From the NCBI RefSeq assembly GCF_002018365.1, contig NZ_MVKX01000011.1, positions 1 through 64,000 of the forward strand: 64,000 bases of DNA, written 5' to 3'. Position 1 is the first letter of the stretch; each line of letters begins with the position of its first letter. The notes beneath the pieces were generated by a model. That model did not search any database. It worked only from the letters and a program-made list of their open reading frames with translations, and was not told the origin of the DNA. This document shows, one piece after another, positions 39,419-63,743 of the stretch. The translations under genes were made by a program, and so were the position numbers. This DNA comes from Acinetobacter amyesii. Lineage in GTDB: Bacteria; Pseudomonadota; Gammaproteobacteria; Pseudomonadales; Moraxellaceae.

Positions 39419-39493
39419 AGGGGCGTCGCCAAGTGGTAAGGCACCGGGTTTTGATCTCGGCATCCGTTGGTTCGAATCCAGCCGCCCCTGCCA
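39419..39493 (+). tRNA. tRNA-Gln (anticodon TTG), copy 1
   Basis: 75 bases with encoded CCA. Acceptor stem AGGGGCG pairs with CGCCCCT; anticodon loop TTTTGAT between CCGGG and CTCGG gives TTG; T-arm TTCGAAT. Starts three bases after ispE. Confidence 0.97.
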
Positions 39494-39531
39494 TCATTTT
39501 TCACCTGTAGATGTAATTGCTGTAAAGTATT

Positions 39532-39606
39532 AGGGGCGTCGCCAAGTGGTAAGGCACCGGGTTTTGATCTCGGCATCCGTTGGTTCGAATCCAGCCGCCC
39601 CTGCCA
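39532..39606 (+). tRNA. tRNA-Gln (anticodon TTG), copy 2
   Basis: Identical to copy 1 over all 75 bases; spacer to copy 1 is 38 bases and unrelated in sequence to the other spacers. Confidence 0.97.
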
Positions 39607-39634
39607 TTTACTTTATTCGCTATTTCATCAATTT

Positions 39635-39709
39635 AGGGGCGTCGCCAAGTGGTAAGGCACCGGGTTTTGATCTCGGCATCCGTTGGTTCGAATCCAGCCG
39701 CCCCTGCCA
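39635..39709 (+). tRNA. tRNA-Gln (anticodon TTG), copy 3
   Basis: Identical to the other copies; spacer to copy 2 is 28 bases. Confidence 0.97.
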
Positions 39710-39760
39710 TTTACTTCAAAAAAGACAGAGCATAATTTGCAGTATCTTTGTTGTTTCAAC

Positions 39761-39789
39761 TTGACAAAATACCGCAAAAATATTAAAGT
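39761..39789 (+). promoter_or_regulatory. Sigma-70 promoter before the fourth tRNA-Gln and prs
   Basis: A perfect TTGACA (39761-39766) and TAAAGT (39784-39789) with 17-base spacing, placed in the longest (91-base) tRNA spacer. It would start transcription just before copy 4 and could carry on into prs, because no terminator is seen between them. Confidence 0.65.
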
Positions 39790-39800
39790 TCTGCCGCATT

Positions 39801-39875
39801 AGGGGCGTCGCCAAGTGGTAAGGCACCGGGTTTTGATCTCGGCATCCGTTGGTTCGAATCCAGCCGCCCCTGCCA
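39801..39875 (+). tRNA. tRNA-Gln (anticodon TTG), copy 4
   Basis: Fourth identical 75-base copy, 91 bases after copy 3 and 37 bases before prs. It has its own promoter-like sequence. Confidence 0.97.
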
Positions 39876-58734: not shown

Positions 58735-58753
58735 GTTTTCCATCTCATAAAAA

Positions 58754-58778
58754 AGGCGCTTTAAGCGCCTTTTTTTTA
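58754..58778 (+). terminator. Terminator of the permease gene
   Basis: Palindromic stem AGGCGCTTTAAGCGCCT (58754-58770), T-run to 58778; an A-run before it may also let it serve the minus strand. Confidence 0.9.
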
Positions 58779-58795
58779 TTTCTAACAAATGATCT

Positions 58796-59434
58796 TTAAG
58801 GCTGAATACGCTTAGCTGATTGCTTAAAGTGGATTGTCATTTCTTCGCACTTCTCGCCTGTATTGCCTTTAAACTCAACAGCGGTTCCCACACCGTGGGT
58901 CCATGTGCCTACTTCCACGGTTTCCAGATTGACTGCCGCTTCAAAGACATACTGCTGCTGCGGATACAGCTTGATTTCACTTGGCGTTTCACAAGTCTGT
59001 TTTGGAAAATACGGTCGAACTTGCTCATCCAACTGCATTGTTAATGGCATATCACATTGCAATTGAATCGTGACTGGCACGCTATTGGTGTTCTTTAATG
59101 TCAGACGTACATTTTGTGAATTTAGTTCAGACTGTGCAGCTGGTATTTCTACAAACGTCTGGGTGTCTATTTTTTCACGGTCAAGTGGATTTAAGAACGT
59201 CAATTTGCGCTCTACACCATGACAGGTATCTTGCTCAGGCGCAGAAAATTCTAGATAGCGTGTTCCAAGTATAAAGCTACCATTCTGCTCACCCGCATGA
59301 CCAATATCAATAATTGGATCACCTGTGCCTTCGATCGTTACCCCACCGCTCGAAAAAAAATCAATCTCACAGCCTGACAATATGGACATCAGGCTGCAAA
59401 GTGTCAGTATTTTAAAATTTAATTTTCGCATCAT
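58796..59434 (-). CDS. Lipoprotein, unknown function
   Basis: 212 residues from the ATG at 59434, nine bases after GGAG. The lipobox LSGC ends a typical lipoprotein signal (Cys about 23). The mature part is polar, with Thr/Gly-rich beta-strand-like stretches (GGVTIEGTGDPIIDIGHAG) and Cys pairs, and no named domain. It is the last of three minus-strand genes and overlaps the DUF6502 gene by 23 bases, so translation is coupled. Confidence 0.8.
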   Translation of the reverse strand: MMRKLNFKILTLCSLMSILSGCEIDFFSSGGVTIEGTGDPIIDIGHAGEQNGSFILGTRYLEFSAPEQDTCHGVERKLTFLNPLDREKIDTQTFVEIPAAQSELNSQNVRLTLKNTNSVPVTIQLQCDMPLTMQLDEQVRPYFPKQTCETPSEIKLYPQQQYVFEAAVNLETVEVGTWTHGVGTAVEFKGNTGEKCEEMTIHFKQSAKRIQP

Positions 59435-60251
59435 GTTGATAAACTCCAAAGCGAAATGCACGATTTGCTTCAGGATTCCCGTCATCCATTGCGCAACGCT
59501 CCGCGGCAAGTTTTAAAAGTTGTAGTGAGTATTTCTGCCAAAGCTCCAAGCTCATTTCATGTAATTTATTAATCGATTCTTCTGTTAATTCGTCGGCACA
59601 AATGGCTTGTTCTAAGTAAGGTATTTCATCAGGATTCAATAAATTATGCAAACCCGCTTCTAAATGCGCTTGAACATTTCGCGTTAAAATTTTACGTGCT
59701 TCTAACTGCGAAGGATCAGGAATAAAACGACGTTGTTGTAAATACACCTGTCCATCTTTTTCAGTGGCAATTTCCAAACGAACAAGCTCATTGAGTACCG
59801 AACGTGGATGGCGCTCGGTGGAGATTCGTTTCACTAACATTTCAAAACTATTTTCCGACTCACTGCTGAAGGGCAATGAATCCCCCCAGCCTTCTGCAAG
59901 CCACAAACCAATCACACGTGATGGCACACTAATTGGCTCAGAAACAGTCGCTTCAGTCAGATCCTTACCCTCAGAAATCACTTCTTTATAAGCAGTCACG
60001 TCTTTACGGTGTAGACCAGAAAGTAAACTGATCGCAGAAATTGTCGGTTTTTGATCGATACGCTCTAACTCATGTACAGCTTGTTGGAAAAAAACCGGTT
60101 TCAATGCAGCAGTAAACTCGGTATACCCCACACCTGAGCGAATCAGCCATTGGCTCAGCTCATTCATCAGCACCAATACTTGCTGTAAATTTTGATCTGC
60201 CTCATTAGTGAGAAGTTTGCTCATTGAATTGCCATGAAAATTAGACTGCAT
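59412..60251 (-). CDS. DUF6502 family protein
   Basis: 279 residues. The N-terminal part (about 30-90) resembles a winged-helix-like domain: LIRSGVGYTEFTAALKPVFF and ISAISLLSGLHRKDVTAYKE (about 70-89), a motif I associate with DUF6502. The C-terminal half is acidic and helical. DNA binding is suggested by the HRKDV helix but unproven. The start may also be the ATG at 60224 (nine residues shorter). Located between the JmjC-like gene (39 bases upstream) and the lipoprotein gene (overlap 23 bases). Confidence 0.8.
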   Translation of the reverse strand: MQSNFHGNSMSKLLTNEADQNLQQVLVLMNELSQWLIRSGVGYTEFTAALKPVFFQQAVHELERIDQKPTISAISLLSGLHRKDVTAYKEVISEGKDLTEATVSEPISVPSRVIGLWLAEGWGDSLPFSSESENSFEMLVKRISTERHPRSVLNELVRLEIATEKDGQVYLQQRRFIPDPSQLEARKILTRNVQAHLEAGLHNLLNPDEIPYLEQAICADELTEESINKLHEMSLELWQKYSLQLLKLAAERCAMDDGNPEANRAFRFGVYQHDAKIKF

Positions 60252-60290
60252 AAGTGAAATTTTCGCATTGTTTAATCTACTTCACAATTT

Positions 60291-61487
60291 TTATCTGATG
60301 AGATCTTGAGGATATTCAGTAAAAAAATGATTATTTACATTAAAATGCGTAAAAGAAACACTGATCGAGATATCTAAACTTTCAACACTATGCCACCAAC
60401 CAATTGGGATAAATAAGGTTTCCCCTGGCTGCAAAATGCACTCGATAGGCGTCACTTTTTCTAACAGTGGATAGGCTGCGAGATCAGCCTTTGCAACGTC
60501 TGAAACCTGACTGAATACCCAATGATCGTTATACATATACGGCATTTGCCATGCAGGAATCAAAGTCACTTTTTTACGTCCATAGATTTGTGCCAACATA
60601 TTATTGGTTAAGTCATAATGCAGTGGTGTAAATGTGCCTGCTGGACCAAACCATAAAAAATGTCGATCTTTGATCTCGTTTTGACAATAACCTTTGGCGA
60701 AGTCACCTAGATCTTCACTTATCTTTTGCATGAACTGCTTATTTTGAGCGGCGTTATTCGCAGTTAAATAAATGTCATTGCTACGCTTAGTGGCTTTGAT
60801 TTGTGCGACAAAATCTTGCATCAAAATAATGCGTTTCAGCTGTACCGATTTTTTTTCAAATTCTTGATGCTGCTCACGATGCATCTGGACTTCAACCAAC
60901 TCATTTTCAAAATGCTGTGCAAAATAATCAGGACTCCATTTATGCAATGCAGGCCAATGTTGTATCCCACCTTTTAAAATGACTGGCCGCATCTGGCTAT
61001 AATACTGCTCTATAAATGTTTTAAAATCAGGTATTTCTATGCAATCGATTGTGGATGGACTGTGGTCGTTCAATTGATTCAATTGACCCATCACCTGTAA
61101 TAACCAGCGCTGTTTATTCTGCTGTTGCTGTAGTTGCTTCAGTTTTTTAAAAATTACGTTATTGTTTACATGCTTTAAAAACAGAATGATCAAATGATTT
61201 GAAATATTTTTTTGCTTAATTTTTTCTAAAATTTCAACTATCTCTAAGCCCTCAAGACTGTAGCCTAAAAGTTCATTTTGCAACTGTTCTGAAAGTTGGT
61301 CTGCATCAGAAAATAGGTATTGATCCGCCCTTGGGCTTAATCCATGTGATTGTAAAATTTCACTTATTTTCTGTACATCGCAACCATTTTCAATATTTTC
61401 ATTCAACCAATTTTGCCATTCCGTCGGTAAGGACTGATACCAATTTTTACTTTGCTTTAGATGTTCACTCTGGCTTTCTACATTCAT
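60291..61487 (-). CDS. JmjC-like cupin (cupin_8) Fe(II)/2-oxoglutarate oxygenase
   Basis: 398 residues from the ATG at 61487, eight bases after GGAG. The N-terminal 120 residues are a helical region. The cupin domain begins about residue 147 (DCIEIPDFKTFIEQ) and includes GPAGTFTPLHYDLTNNMLAQIYG with the metal ligands His290 and Asp292, and FIPIGWWHSVE with His366. This HxD...H triad is that of FIH/JmjC hydroxylases, which hydroxylate proteins or tRNA. The target is unknown. It is the first gene of a three-gene minus-strand cluster. Confidence 0.87.
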   Translation of the reverse strand: MNVESQSEHLKQSKNWYQSLPTEWQNWLNENIENGCDVQKISEILQSHGLSPRADQYLFSDADQLSEQLQNELLGYSLEGLEIVEILEKIKQKNISNHLIILFLKHVNNNVIFKKLKQLQQQQNKQRWLLQVMGQLNQLNDHSPSTIDCIEIPDFKTFIEQYYSQMRPVILKGGIQHWPALHKWSPDYFAQHFENELVEVQMHREQHQEFEKKSVQLKRIILMQDFVAQIKATKRSNDIYLTANNAAQNKQFMQKISEDLGDFAKGYCQNEIKDRHFLWFGPAGTFTPLHYDLTNNMLAQIYGRKKVTLIPAWQMPYMYNDHWVFSQVSDVAKADLAAYPLLEKVTPIECILQPGETLFIPIGWWHSVESLDISISVSFTHFNVNNHFFTEYPQDLIR

Positions 61488-61639
61488 TTTCACCACTCCA
61501 CCCTCTTTACAAGTGAAGTATAAATGATCTATTTTAAAAATGCTAAATTTTCGCATTTTATAATTATTTAAACACCGCGAATGTTATGAATCCGTCAAAT
61601 ATCACGCGGAATGACATAACAAAGTAAAGGAGAAAGTTC

Positions 61640-62035
61640 ATGAAAATTCGTCATTTAGTCATCGTTAGCAGTCTGTCTTTAGCTTCAATACCGGTATATG
61701 CAGGTTTTGCCGATACCATGCGTGATTTAAGAAATACGCTGAATCAATTTAATGAAACATCCAAAGAAGTATCGAATACCGCAAAAGAATGGACAGGCAG
61801 TCGGGCCACGACTAACTCAAGTTATGCTGCAAATGGTTTCAGCATGGGACAGCAACTCAGACCTAAAATTAATAATCTACCGCTTTATCAAACTGCAGAT
61901 AAATCGAGCCAAGTCATTAATAAACTGTCAAAAAATGCAGACATTATTTTTGCGGGAAACATGACTAAAACAGGTTTGATCGAAGTCACTACAGAACATG
62001 GCAATGGCTGGATTGAGTCACACCTTGTGCAATAA
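61640..62035 (+). CDS. Exported SH3-like domain protein
   Basis: 131 residues with AAAGGAG before the ATG. A cleavable export signal (MKIRHLVIVSSLSLASIPVYA, about 1-21) is followed by a helical polar part (FADTMRDLRNTLNQFNETSK) and a bacterial SH3-like domain from about residue 75 (LPLYQTADKSSQVINKLSKNADIIFAG ... NGWIESHLV). SH3b domains often bind peptidoglycan, so a periplasmic wall association is plausible. It is divergent from the JmjC-like gene. Confidence 0.8.
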   Translation: MKIRHLVIVSSLSLASIPVYAGFADTMRDLRNTLNQFNETSKEVSNTAKEWTGSRATTNSSYAANGFSMGQQLRPKINNLPLYQTADKSSQVINKLSKNADIIFAGNMTKTGLIEVTTEHGNGWIESHLVQ

Positions 62036-62105: not shown

Positions 62106-63743
62106 ATGAATAATAATCACAAAATCAGCATTATCGCTGCTGTATTTACGACATTGGTGGGCTGTGGTGGATCAAGCTCTAATGATGATGGCGCGACACC
62201 TACACCTACACCTACACCTACACCTACACCTACACCTACACCTACACCTACACCTACACCTACACCTACACCTACACCTACACCTACACCTACGCCAACA
62301 CCAACACCAACACCAACACCAACACCAACACCAACACCAACACCAACAACTGTAGCGGATAAATTCACAGGTGAATGGATTCAAGGGAACTCTGCCCTCG
62401 GTAACAGTAATTGCGATTTACCACAAATTTCAATTCATAAAACCAGTGAAAATTCAGTCAGTGCACAGAACGAAGAACTAAAATATGCAGTACACAATAG
62501 TTCAAGCAAAACCTGCAGCGGTGAATTTATTTCCAAACGCTATCAATTACTTCATGACATGGTCATGAGTGAAATACAGCCGGCTGCAACACTAAATAAC
62601 TTTGAATATCATGCGATTAAGTTTCAAGCAGTCAGAGGTGGCGCGACGAGCAACCGTGTCTTAACTTTTTTAAATAATAATTCTTTCTGTGTGATCAACG
62701 CGACGATTTCAAATCCAAGCTATATCATCATGCAACGCGGTCTAATTACTGACCCACTCAAGGACAGCCGCTGCTATACAAAAAACACCAATGAATTCTT
62801 CACCAATTTAAAACCGAAAGCCAAAATCACAACTGCAGACTTTAAGTCTGAAAGTTTTATTAATTCGACCGACACAGTAAACTTCTTGGCTCAGCTCAAT
62901 ACAATGGGACAAAGTGGTTATAAGTTAATTGGCTATGATTCTAAAACTTTGGACAATGGCAATGTTAATAGCTACATGAAACTTGCCAATGAAAATACGC
63001 GTTTCAATCATATTGTGGCAGATCGTACAGCACCCTCTACCGCTGACATTTATTTTACATGGCGTAATCAGTTAAATGAAAAAGGCAAATCAGGTTATCA
63101 ATACTTGCATAGCGTCAGACCGACCAATGCCCTGAATTTCAAAGATTATTTTATTAAGAAGGAAAATGATACCGCAACATACACCTATGACAGCGGCTAT
63201 GCTTCCCCACTCGTAGACCCAGTGCAACTGGAAACCATGCTTAATACACTGGGTGCCCAAGGCTGCCGTATTATTCAATTCAAAAGTTATTTCACTGGTT
63301 TACGTCCTGAAATTCTGAACGGCAATCAAAATAGTCCTAAAGTTGCAACCTGTATAAATAGCAGCGCACACCATGGCACCTACAGCTATCGTCATAAAAC
63401 TTACCCAACCGGCAGCAATAGTGTAGAGCGCAGCTTAAAATTACAGGAGTTGATTGATGAGCAGGCTAAAGACGGTTACCGCTTAGTCAGCCGTGCTTTA
63501 GATATGAGTTCAACCACCAAAAACGGCATGCTGTTTATGAAAGACAGTGAAAACACCAATGTCGGTGAGTTTAAAGTCTTTAGCGAAACTGTCTTTGCAA
63601 CGTCGACGTTTAACGATGTCTTGCTGAAACGTCTTCAGCAGCAAGGTCAACTCGGTTGGTTATACACCAGTGGTCAACTACTGTTTGCAAACAATCCAAA
63701 ACATCTACAAACAGAACTGAGTGACTTTAATTTAATTGATTAA
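62106..63743 (+). CDS. Lipoprotein with Thr-Pro stalk and five internal helix repeats
   Basis: 545 residues. A lipoprotein signal ends in LVGC with Cys20, then a short Ser/Asn/Asp linker, then 25 Thr-Pro dipeptides (residues 31-80), a probable rigid extended stalk. The remaining 460 residues include an N-terminal Cys-containing region and, from about residue 255, five repeats with the pattern L-x2-L-N-x2-G-x2-G-[YCW]: QLNTMGQSGYKLIGY, QLNEKGKSGYQYL, LNTLGAQGCRIIQF, LIDEQAKDGYRLV, RLQQQGQLGWLY. Between them lie beta-hairpin-like stretches, giving a unit of about 55-65 residues. The pattern resembles DUF4177-like domains. No function is known. Confidence 0.8.
   Translation: MNNNHKISIIAAVFTTLVGCGGSSSNDDGATPTPTPTPTPTPTPTPTPTPTPTPTPTPTPTPTPTPTPTPTPTPTPTPTPTTVADKFTGEWIQGNSALGNSNCDLPQISIHKTSENSVSAQNEELKYAVHNSSSKTCSGEFISKRYQLLHDMVMSEIQPAATLNNFEYHAIKFQAVRGGATSNRVLTFLNNNSFCVINATISNPSYIIMQRGLITDPLKDSRCYTKNTNEFFTNLKPKAKITTADFKSESFINSTDTVNFLAQLNTMGQSGYKLIGYDSKTLDNGNVNSYMKLANENTRFNHIVADRTAPSTADIYFTWRNQLNEKGKSGYQYLHSVRPTNALNFKDYFIKKENDTATYTYDSGYASPLVDPVQLETMLNTLGAQGCRIIQFKSYFTGLRPEILNGNQNSPKVATCINSSAHHGTYSYRHKTYPTGSNSVERSLKLQELIDEQAKDGYRLVSRALDMSSTTKNGMLFMKDSENTNVGEFKVFSETVFATSTFNDVLLKRLQQQGQLGWLYTSGQLLFANNPKHLQTELSDFNLID
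62196..62345. repeat. Hexanucleotide repeat encoding the Thr-Pro stalk
   Basis: Sixteen ACACCT units (62196-62291), one ACGCCA, then eight ACACCA units (62298-62345), 25 hexamers in all. The change of the proline codon from CCT to CCA at a single point divides it into two blocks. Six-base units keep the frame whatever the copy number. Confidence 0.97.

Follow-up and report, generated by a model that had tools for sequence, protein, structure and literature searches.

The locus analyzed here is a gene module built around a DUF6502 protein of Acinetobacter amyesii, and each of the described systems closest to it resembles it in part. HetR is a palindrome-binding regulator with an exported inhibitor, PatS, whose motif is of the RG[ST]GR type. 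The part played by HetR in heterocyst regulation has been described (PMC4649674). DUF5666 (PF18914), a domain that recurs in proteins encoded next to DUF6502 (PF20112), appears as an entry in a hub-gene table (PMC10714799). The lipo_PTPT family (NF045612) of PT-repeat lipoproteins is not described as part of a module. JMJD5 (KDM8)-type enzymes modify arginine and carry the molecule name arginyl-hydroxylase in the PDB. In the open-access PubMed Central (PMC) literature no paper was found that names DUF6502, none on the PT-repeat family (PT dipeptide repeat, lipo PTPT, NF045612) and none that contains the four operator strings searched. The module lies in a 64,000 nucleotide (nt) stretch of DNA (contig NZ_MVKX01000011.1, positions 1–64,000), termed the window, which is part of a 3.42-Mb genome in 14 contigs.

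The new result is a likely palindromic operator at DUF6502 promoters in many bacteria, and the locus appears to be the form taken in Acinetobacter by a regulatory pair that is widespread but undescribed. In the window DUF6502 is encoded at positions 59412–60251 (minus strand) as a predicted 279 amino acid (aa) protein that matches PF20112 (E-value = 3.8e-15, 55.9 bits, cut-off 27). The explanation that we consider probable is that DUF6502 acts through the palindrome to regulate its own gene together with genes of the envelope and surface, and that the Acinetobacter oxygenase hydroxylates a protein of the module. DUF6502 would be a cytoplasmic transcription regulator with two predicted helix-turn-helix domains. 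We infer that it binds the palindrome, which reads TGGGA-N5/6-TCCCA in most lineages and TGYGAAAWTTTMRCA in the window. The palindrome would overlap or abut the core promoter of DUF6502 and of a few exported-protein and redox genes, and DUF6502 most likely represses all of these.

Outside Acinetobacter the operator was recognized in Burkholderiales, where the DNA upstream of DUF6502 carries ATGGGAAAATTTCCCAT. The locus set used consists of the best 80 of 141 DUF6502 loci, 25 from Acinetobacter and 55 from other bacteria. A first 15-bp version, TGGGAAAWTTTCCCA, is found with up to 2 mismatches between −160 and +60 of the start in 39 of the 55 non-Acinetobacter loci; elsewhere there are 19 sites in 670,826 bases, several of which are tandem pairs slightly further upstream. 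This version is found at only 6 of 60 diverse gammaproteobacterial loci (up to 2 mismatches), and a general 15-bp palindrome score is not enriched at those 60 starts. The spacer in other gammaproteobacteria is six bases long. When both spacers are allowed, TGGGA-N5/6-TCCCA with at most 1 mismatch is located at the DUF6502 start in 40/60 and 44/55 loci, compared with 5/762 and 16/960 random windows and, for permuted arms in the same windows, 1/282 and 5/262. In 36 loci of L122–L169 the median distance from the end of the operator to the first in-frame start is 14 bases, and 14 of the 36 have a strict −10 pattern after the operator. The exact string TGKGAAAWTTTCMCA is present in 6/10 genomes and the reversed control in none: it occurs once each, at the DUF6502 promoter, in G494, G498, G499 and G503, twice in G500, and once in G495 at a position away from DUF6502.

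The operator is also found before a small number of other genes. In 18 genomes chosen for having the six-spacer form, 34 distinct sites match TGGGAHTANNNTCCCA; of these, 18 are at DUF6502 and 16 elsewhere. Ten of the 16 other sites, in seven loci, were inspected; seven precede DUF5666-type lipoprotein genes and two precede small lipoprotein genes. The extra sites before DUF5666-type lipoprotein genes come from four genomes. The remaining inspected site (G377) has a cytochrome/membrane-protein cluster on one side and an oxidoreductase gene on the other, and is on a contig without DUF6502. In the Methylotenera-type loci L174, L175 and L177 a second operator is flanked by this same pair of genes. 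The genes, which display multihaem cytochrome and 4Fe-4S/FAD domains, are homologous between the lineages (identity of 54% over 380 residues for the oxidoreductase, of 37% over 262 for the membrane protein and of 44% over 182 for the cytochrome), and in each lineage the target site carries the arm version of its own DUF6502 promoter. Recurrence at the cytochrome and oxidoreductase genes thus appears to support the operator in a less circular way than the counts at DUF6502. With its predicted operator, its constant exported partner and a candidate regulon of few members (DUF5666-type lipoproteins and the multihaem cytochrome cluster, with YadA-type adhesins, pili and a PgaA-type exporter as neighbors), the uncharacterized DUF6502 becomes a testable cell-surface regulator.

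In the window, operator 1, TGCGAAAATTTAGCA, is at positions 61541–61555 (minus strand) in the intergenic DNA upstream of the JmjC oxygenase gene, and its right half contains TTAGCA, a −35-like hexamer. A promoter-like match lies at 61546–61517, though the promoter scan as a whole was not above shuffles. Operator 2, TGCGAAAATTTCACT, at 60253–60267 (minus strand), is immediately upstream of DUF6502 and is also present in L098, L099, L103 and L196. The sequence ATGCGAAAATT has three copies in the window, all within the module (0.10 expected); the third, at 59421–59431 (minus strand) at the start of the lipoprotein gene, is a half-site only and is not counted as an operator. The dyad TGYGAAAWTTTMRC has two sites in the entire 3.42-Mb genome, upstream of JmjC and of DUF6502. 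The arms in the window are TGYGA/TMRCA, unlike the TGGGA/TCCCA of the DUF6502/DUF5666 pairs. All 20 Acinetobacter JmjC loci with available upstream DNA have an operator site upstream of JmjC, and within these loci a scan allowing up to 1 mismatch found no operator beyond the module. Operator sites are retained in L100, L103, L118, L196 and L197, which lack JmjC; L106 has none at up to 1 mismatch. DUF6502 would most likely repress both its own operon and the divergent promoter of the JmjC and PT-repeat genes from a palindrome that covers the core promoter; at JmjC the TTAGCA hexamer falls within the operator. In L120, L112 and L119 the divergent intergenic region upstream of JmjC has two operator-like palindromes 24 bases apart.

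The predicted structure of DUF6502 would fit a DNA-binding role. Two AlphaFold2 models of DUF6502 have predicted local distance difference test (pLDDT) values of 80.4 and 84.5 and a predicted template modelling (pTM) score of 0.69 each. They consist of a tri-helical helix-turn-helix domain (about residues 43–93), a winged helix (about 104–175) and then two long helices. Structural neighbors of residues 43–90 are of the TetR type (Z-score 6.9, 1.7 Å over 48 residues) and those of residues 104–175 are of the MarR/CRP type (best Z-score 7.8, 2.0 Å over 59 residues). The initial annotation had called this protein possibly DNA-binding, and the models point the same way. PF20112 is matched by 72/72 members of the DUF6502 alignment, and in these 72 sequences the predicted recognition region, S72–K83, holds most of the invariant residues. 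A search of PDB chains with the DUF6502 profile gave no hit at E-values up to 10.

The likeness to HetR and PatS is twofold. HetR occupies the top four Foldseek rows for model 1 (E-values 0.008–0.05), and the motif of the exported partner described below recalls that of PatS. However the HetR superposition has a Z-score of 6.2 at 10.5 Å, and HetR is absent among the 50 matches listed for model 2. Membership in the HetR family was rejected, as the hhalign probability is 0.2% and the HetR score of −2.1 bits is exceeded by several of 300 shuffled sequences. A distant kinship of fold between DUF6502 and HetR may nevertheless exist.

On the sequences compared, the old and widespread core of the system is DUF6502 together with a downstream exported protein that displays the motif [hydrophobic]-x-G-[TS]-G near its N-terminus. 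The partner would be co-transcribed with DUF6502 and usually lipidated, with the motif just past the signal sequence. In the window it is the lipoprotein encoded at positions 58796–59434 (minus strand, 212 aa), which has the lipobox LSGC as judged by eye. The codons of its I-E-G-T-G motif are at 59321–59335 (minus strand), corresponding to residues 34–38, 12 residues past the lipobox cysteine. Acinetobacter partners have IEGTG, LEGTG or LGGSG at this place. Outside Acinetobacter, most DUF6502 genes are likewise preceded by the palindromic operator, and the gene downstream encodes an exported protein that is as a rule lipidated and frequently contains DUF5666 domains. The N-terminal region of this protein reads GGIGGTG, GIEGTG, GVGSGGSG and similar, with many copies in some lineages. 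DUF5666 was not detected in the partner of the window nor in two other Acinetobacter partners, and the window lipoprotein matches no Pfam family over cut-off. Methylophilaceae partners (L174, L175, L177) display many GIGGTG repeats, and the gene after the partner in these loci encodes an exported protein of ~260 aa that matches no Pfam family.

The strict motif pattern was found downstream of DUF6502 in 57/79 loci of a first set and upstream in 4/79. In the second set, that of the 80 loci, the motif is present in 60 of 61 scorable downstream exported open reading frames and in 20 of 649 other exported-looking ones; the counts of both sets ignore relatedness. In 19 of the 80 loci there is no cleanly called downstream exported open reading frame and these were left unscored, although a partner is visible in several. 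Six of seven listed lipobox-bearing frames in the "other" class look like partner genes whose start was called too far upstream, and the sole partner without a match, in L151, reads GVGTGGTG. In many Burkholderiales loci the partner start codon overlaps the DUF6502 stop.

This tight and often overlapping coupling would fit a protein pair just as well as a regulator with its target. It is therefore conceivable, though unlikely, that the palindrome is real but bound by another and perhaps global regulator, and that DUF6502 is just one of its targets and has a different cytoplasmic role, e.g. handling of the partner before export; DNA binding by DUF6502 is, after all, a prediction. A global regulator would have many sites, however, whereas the operator is nearly confined to DUF6502 loci, as the single exact site in each of four genomes and the empty reversed control in ten genomes illustrate, and DUF6502 is the gene common to all the lineages. 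With DUF6502 as the regulator, the partner might also act as its signal. The motif or export state of the partner would control the grip of DUF6502 on the operator in a feedback loop that senses export or the envelope, and the Acinetobacter oxygenase would mark a module protein in a way that depends on oxygen or iron, thereby tuning either the loop or the surface lipoprotein. We regard this extension as improbable.

The initial annotation described a unit of three genes, namely the JmjC-like oxygenase, DUF6502 and the lipoprotein, and knew of no described system with this set. The three genes are indeed all on the minus strand, with a 39-base gap between JmjC and DUF6502 and a 23-base overlap between DUF6502 and the lipoprotein gene. 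The lack of a described system agrees with the literature search on DUF6502; the trio itself, however, is not the basic unit, since the older and widespread pair is DUF6502 with the motif-bearing exported protein. It is also incomplete. The conserved unit runs beyond position 61487 to a divergent fourth gene at 62106–63743 (plus strand), which encodes a PT-repeat lipoprotein (lipo_PTPT, NF045612, 198.2 bits, cut-off 125). Transcription of the three genes as one unit is doubtful in this clade, because a separate operator-like site for DUF6502 follows the JmjC gene. As this palindrome is at 60253–60267, the true DUF6502 start is probably the ATG at position 60224 (MSKLL...), as in the L004 homologue. 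With this start the gap is 66 bases and holds its own regulatory site, and the three genes therefore need not share one transcript.

The oxygenase is encoded at positions 60291–61487 (minus strand) and is a predicted 398 aa Cupin_8/JmjC protein of the Fe(II)/2-oxoglutarate (2OG) type with a helical-looking N-terminal region of ~140 residues. Its Pfam matches are Cupin_8 (E-value = 4.9e-43), JmjC_2 (2.6e-7) and JmjC (4.3e-5). The closest solved relative is JMJD5 (2.4e-33), followed by TYW5 (3al5, 2.4e-20) and FIH (~1e-13). The HxD...H triad and the 2OG lysine (H290, D292, H366, K305) align with those of JMJD5 and are invariant in 22 sequences. It differs from JMJD5 in that residues 1–139 are outside the match and in its bacterial gene context. 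Kinship to the JMJD5 arginyl hydroxylases, which C3-hydroxylate protein arginine, is suggested by sequence similarity. The initial annotation offered protein or tRNA as substrate, and the first of these fits the retained residues and the nearness to JMJD5. Hydroxylation of tRNA was rejected as having little support, TYW5 scoring far below JMJD5.

Conservation was examined in a genus sample of 119 genomes; the co-occurrence p values are from Fisher tests that ignore phylogeny. DUF6502 is present in 32/119 genomes, a long JmjC homologue in 19/119 and a lipoprotein partner recognizable by sequence in 10/119. The JmjC count is that obtained after three weak partial matches (G007, G057, G077, E-value ~1e-4) were dropped from 22 rows at an E-value of 0.001. 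The JmjC gene is within 0.75 kb of the DUF6502 gene in 19/19 genomes (p = 7e-14) and adjoins it directly in 18; in G021 a small opposite gene is between them. The genes are thus neighbors in other genomes also, contrary to one of the refuting conditions named in the initial annotation. The PT-repeat family model matches in 19/119 genomes, 18 of them shared with JmjC (p = 4e-19), and in these 18 the PT-repeat gene is within ~1.1 kb of the JmjC gene.

The 25 Acinetobacter DUF6502 loci include 21 with JmjC, 21 with the PT-repeat gene and 24 with the downstream lipoprotein cluster; the 25th locus for the latter, L100, runs off its contig, with the partner motif still visible. A profile built from JmjC sequences alone gave 21 matches in the locus set, all of them JmjC. 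JmjC was found in 0/55 non-Acinetobacter loci in the available DNA, and many of these loci are on short contigs. Within this set of 80 loci the addition of the oxygenase to the older pair is seen in Acinetobacter alone. Two genes would have joined the pair there and come under the same operator, one for the divergent surface lipoprotein with PT repeats and one for the JMJD5-like oxygenase. The nearest named locus is that of Acinetobacter gandensis, with a DUF6502 that is 96% identical; the oxygenase in G041 is 72% identical. More widely, DUF6502 was found in 51/185 sampled genomes of the class and in 25/97 genera of the order.

The patchy spread of the oxygenase, 19/119 genomes at two chromosomal sites, could suggest neighbors without shared function that are carried jointly as an accessory island. 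We consider this very improbable. The Acinetobacter loci at the two sites (7/25 and 16/25) have identical internal order and orientation, the operator is shared, and the protein distances of the four module genes co-vary (r = 0.76–0.98) in 15/21 JmjC loci, the comparison being made without L101, L102, L104 and L115 (N runs or contig ends) and L099 and L119 (filter). In addition, the promoter is retained where the oxygenase has been lost (L103, L100).

The most likely target of hydroxylation by the oxygenase is a side chain in one of the module proteins, and the leading candidate is the PT-repeat lipoprotein precursor, which is favored because it tracks the oxygenase most closely. The enzyme would be one of the few bacterial JmjC proteins for which the likely substrate can be sought among the neighboring genes. 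Alternatively the oxygenase could hydroxylate DUF6502 itself, which would make the regulator a sensor of oxygen, iron or 2OG. Both proteins are expected to be cytoplasmic, all 19 oxygenase genes of the genus are beside DUF6502, and the recognition-helix region has an invariant His-Arg-Lys (H81 R82 K83), arginine being the residue modified by JMJD5-type enzymes. However the invariance of these three residues is just as strict in DUF6502 from loci that lack the oxygenase, and DUF6502 tracks the oxygenase less closely than the PT-repeat gene does, as 13 of the 32 genomes with DUF6502 have no oxygenase. We judge modification of DUF6502 to be unlikely.

Several observations count against regulation by DUF6502 through the palindrome and against a tie between oxygenase and PT-repeat lipoprotein. 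The loci used to count TGGGA-N5/6-TCCCA are also those that gave rise to the pattern; its 16-bp version was read off the output of the 15-bp scan, and the counts are therefore in-sample, a description and not a blind prediction. The pattern is missing at 20/60 and 11/55 loci. Fourteen orphan Acinetobacter DUF6502 loci (L180–L182, L184–L194) have no operator at up to 1 mismatch. In 13 Acinetobacter genomes there are 35 matches to the Acinetobacter dyad (16 in the module, 19 elsewhere) compared with 26 for the reversed control; this total is little above chance, and it is therefore the placement of the operator and not its count that speaks. All structural neighbors of DUF6502 have Z-scores under 8, which may mean only a common arrangement, and in Foldseek neither model has a match at an E-value of 0.001 or better. 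In G021 the family model misses the PT-repeat gene, though a PT-repeat lipoprotein stands at that place, and G088 has lost the oxygenase and kept all other module genes.

The PT tract itself is encoded by a six-base DNA repeat (62180–62345, plus strand) and varies from 18 to 70 residues between species. In G072 the PT-repeat gene is split into two matches.

Oxygenase homologues that reach into the N-terminal region occur in the order sample in G236 and G176, on contigs apart from their DUF6502 genes. Two relatives of the oxygenase in G236 (L229, 1169–5563) have a type I secretion ABC transporter and an RTX-repeat protein as neighbors, and one of these relatives forms a fusion with methyltransferase and APH-like (kinase) domains; the neighbors are again exported proteins, and none of them points to a substrate. 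The first ~40 residues of the oxygenase are found again in G188 and G449 (L231 2085–3488, L233 3334–4179), there ahead of P4H-like 2OG oxygenase domains, and the N-terminal stretch therefore looks like an accessory part of 2OG oxygenases.

Orphan DUF6502 genes of Acinetobacter adjoin genes for YadA-type adhesins (trimeric autotransporters), SCPU pili with a PapD-type chaperone, a PgaA-type barrel, or an RTX/VWA protein, as checked by Pfam in L180, L181, L182, L187, L188, L190, L191 and L192. Surface structures are therefore suggested as a general theme. A small open reading frame starting MRAYSLDLRKKV or similar, transposase-like by eye, is near DUF6502 in L180, L181, L186, L189, L192, L193 and L194.

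An anti-phage defense role was rejected, as PADLOC matched 0/5 module proteins to a defense model. A small exported protein that occurs in only some module loci is encoded at positions 61640–62035 (plus strand). It matches no Pfam family, and we take it, by eye, to be SH3-like; its relatives are in L098, L099, L103, L118, L183, L195 and L197. A terminator-like hairpin is at 58749–58775 (plus strand), between an amino-acid permease gene and the lipoprotein gene; the scan gave 6 terminator-like sites where 2.5 are expected. Elsewhere in the window, four tandem tRNA-Gln (TTG) genes are at positions 39419–39875 (plus strand).

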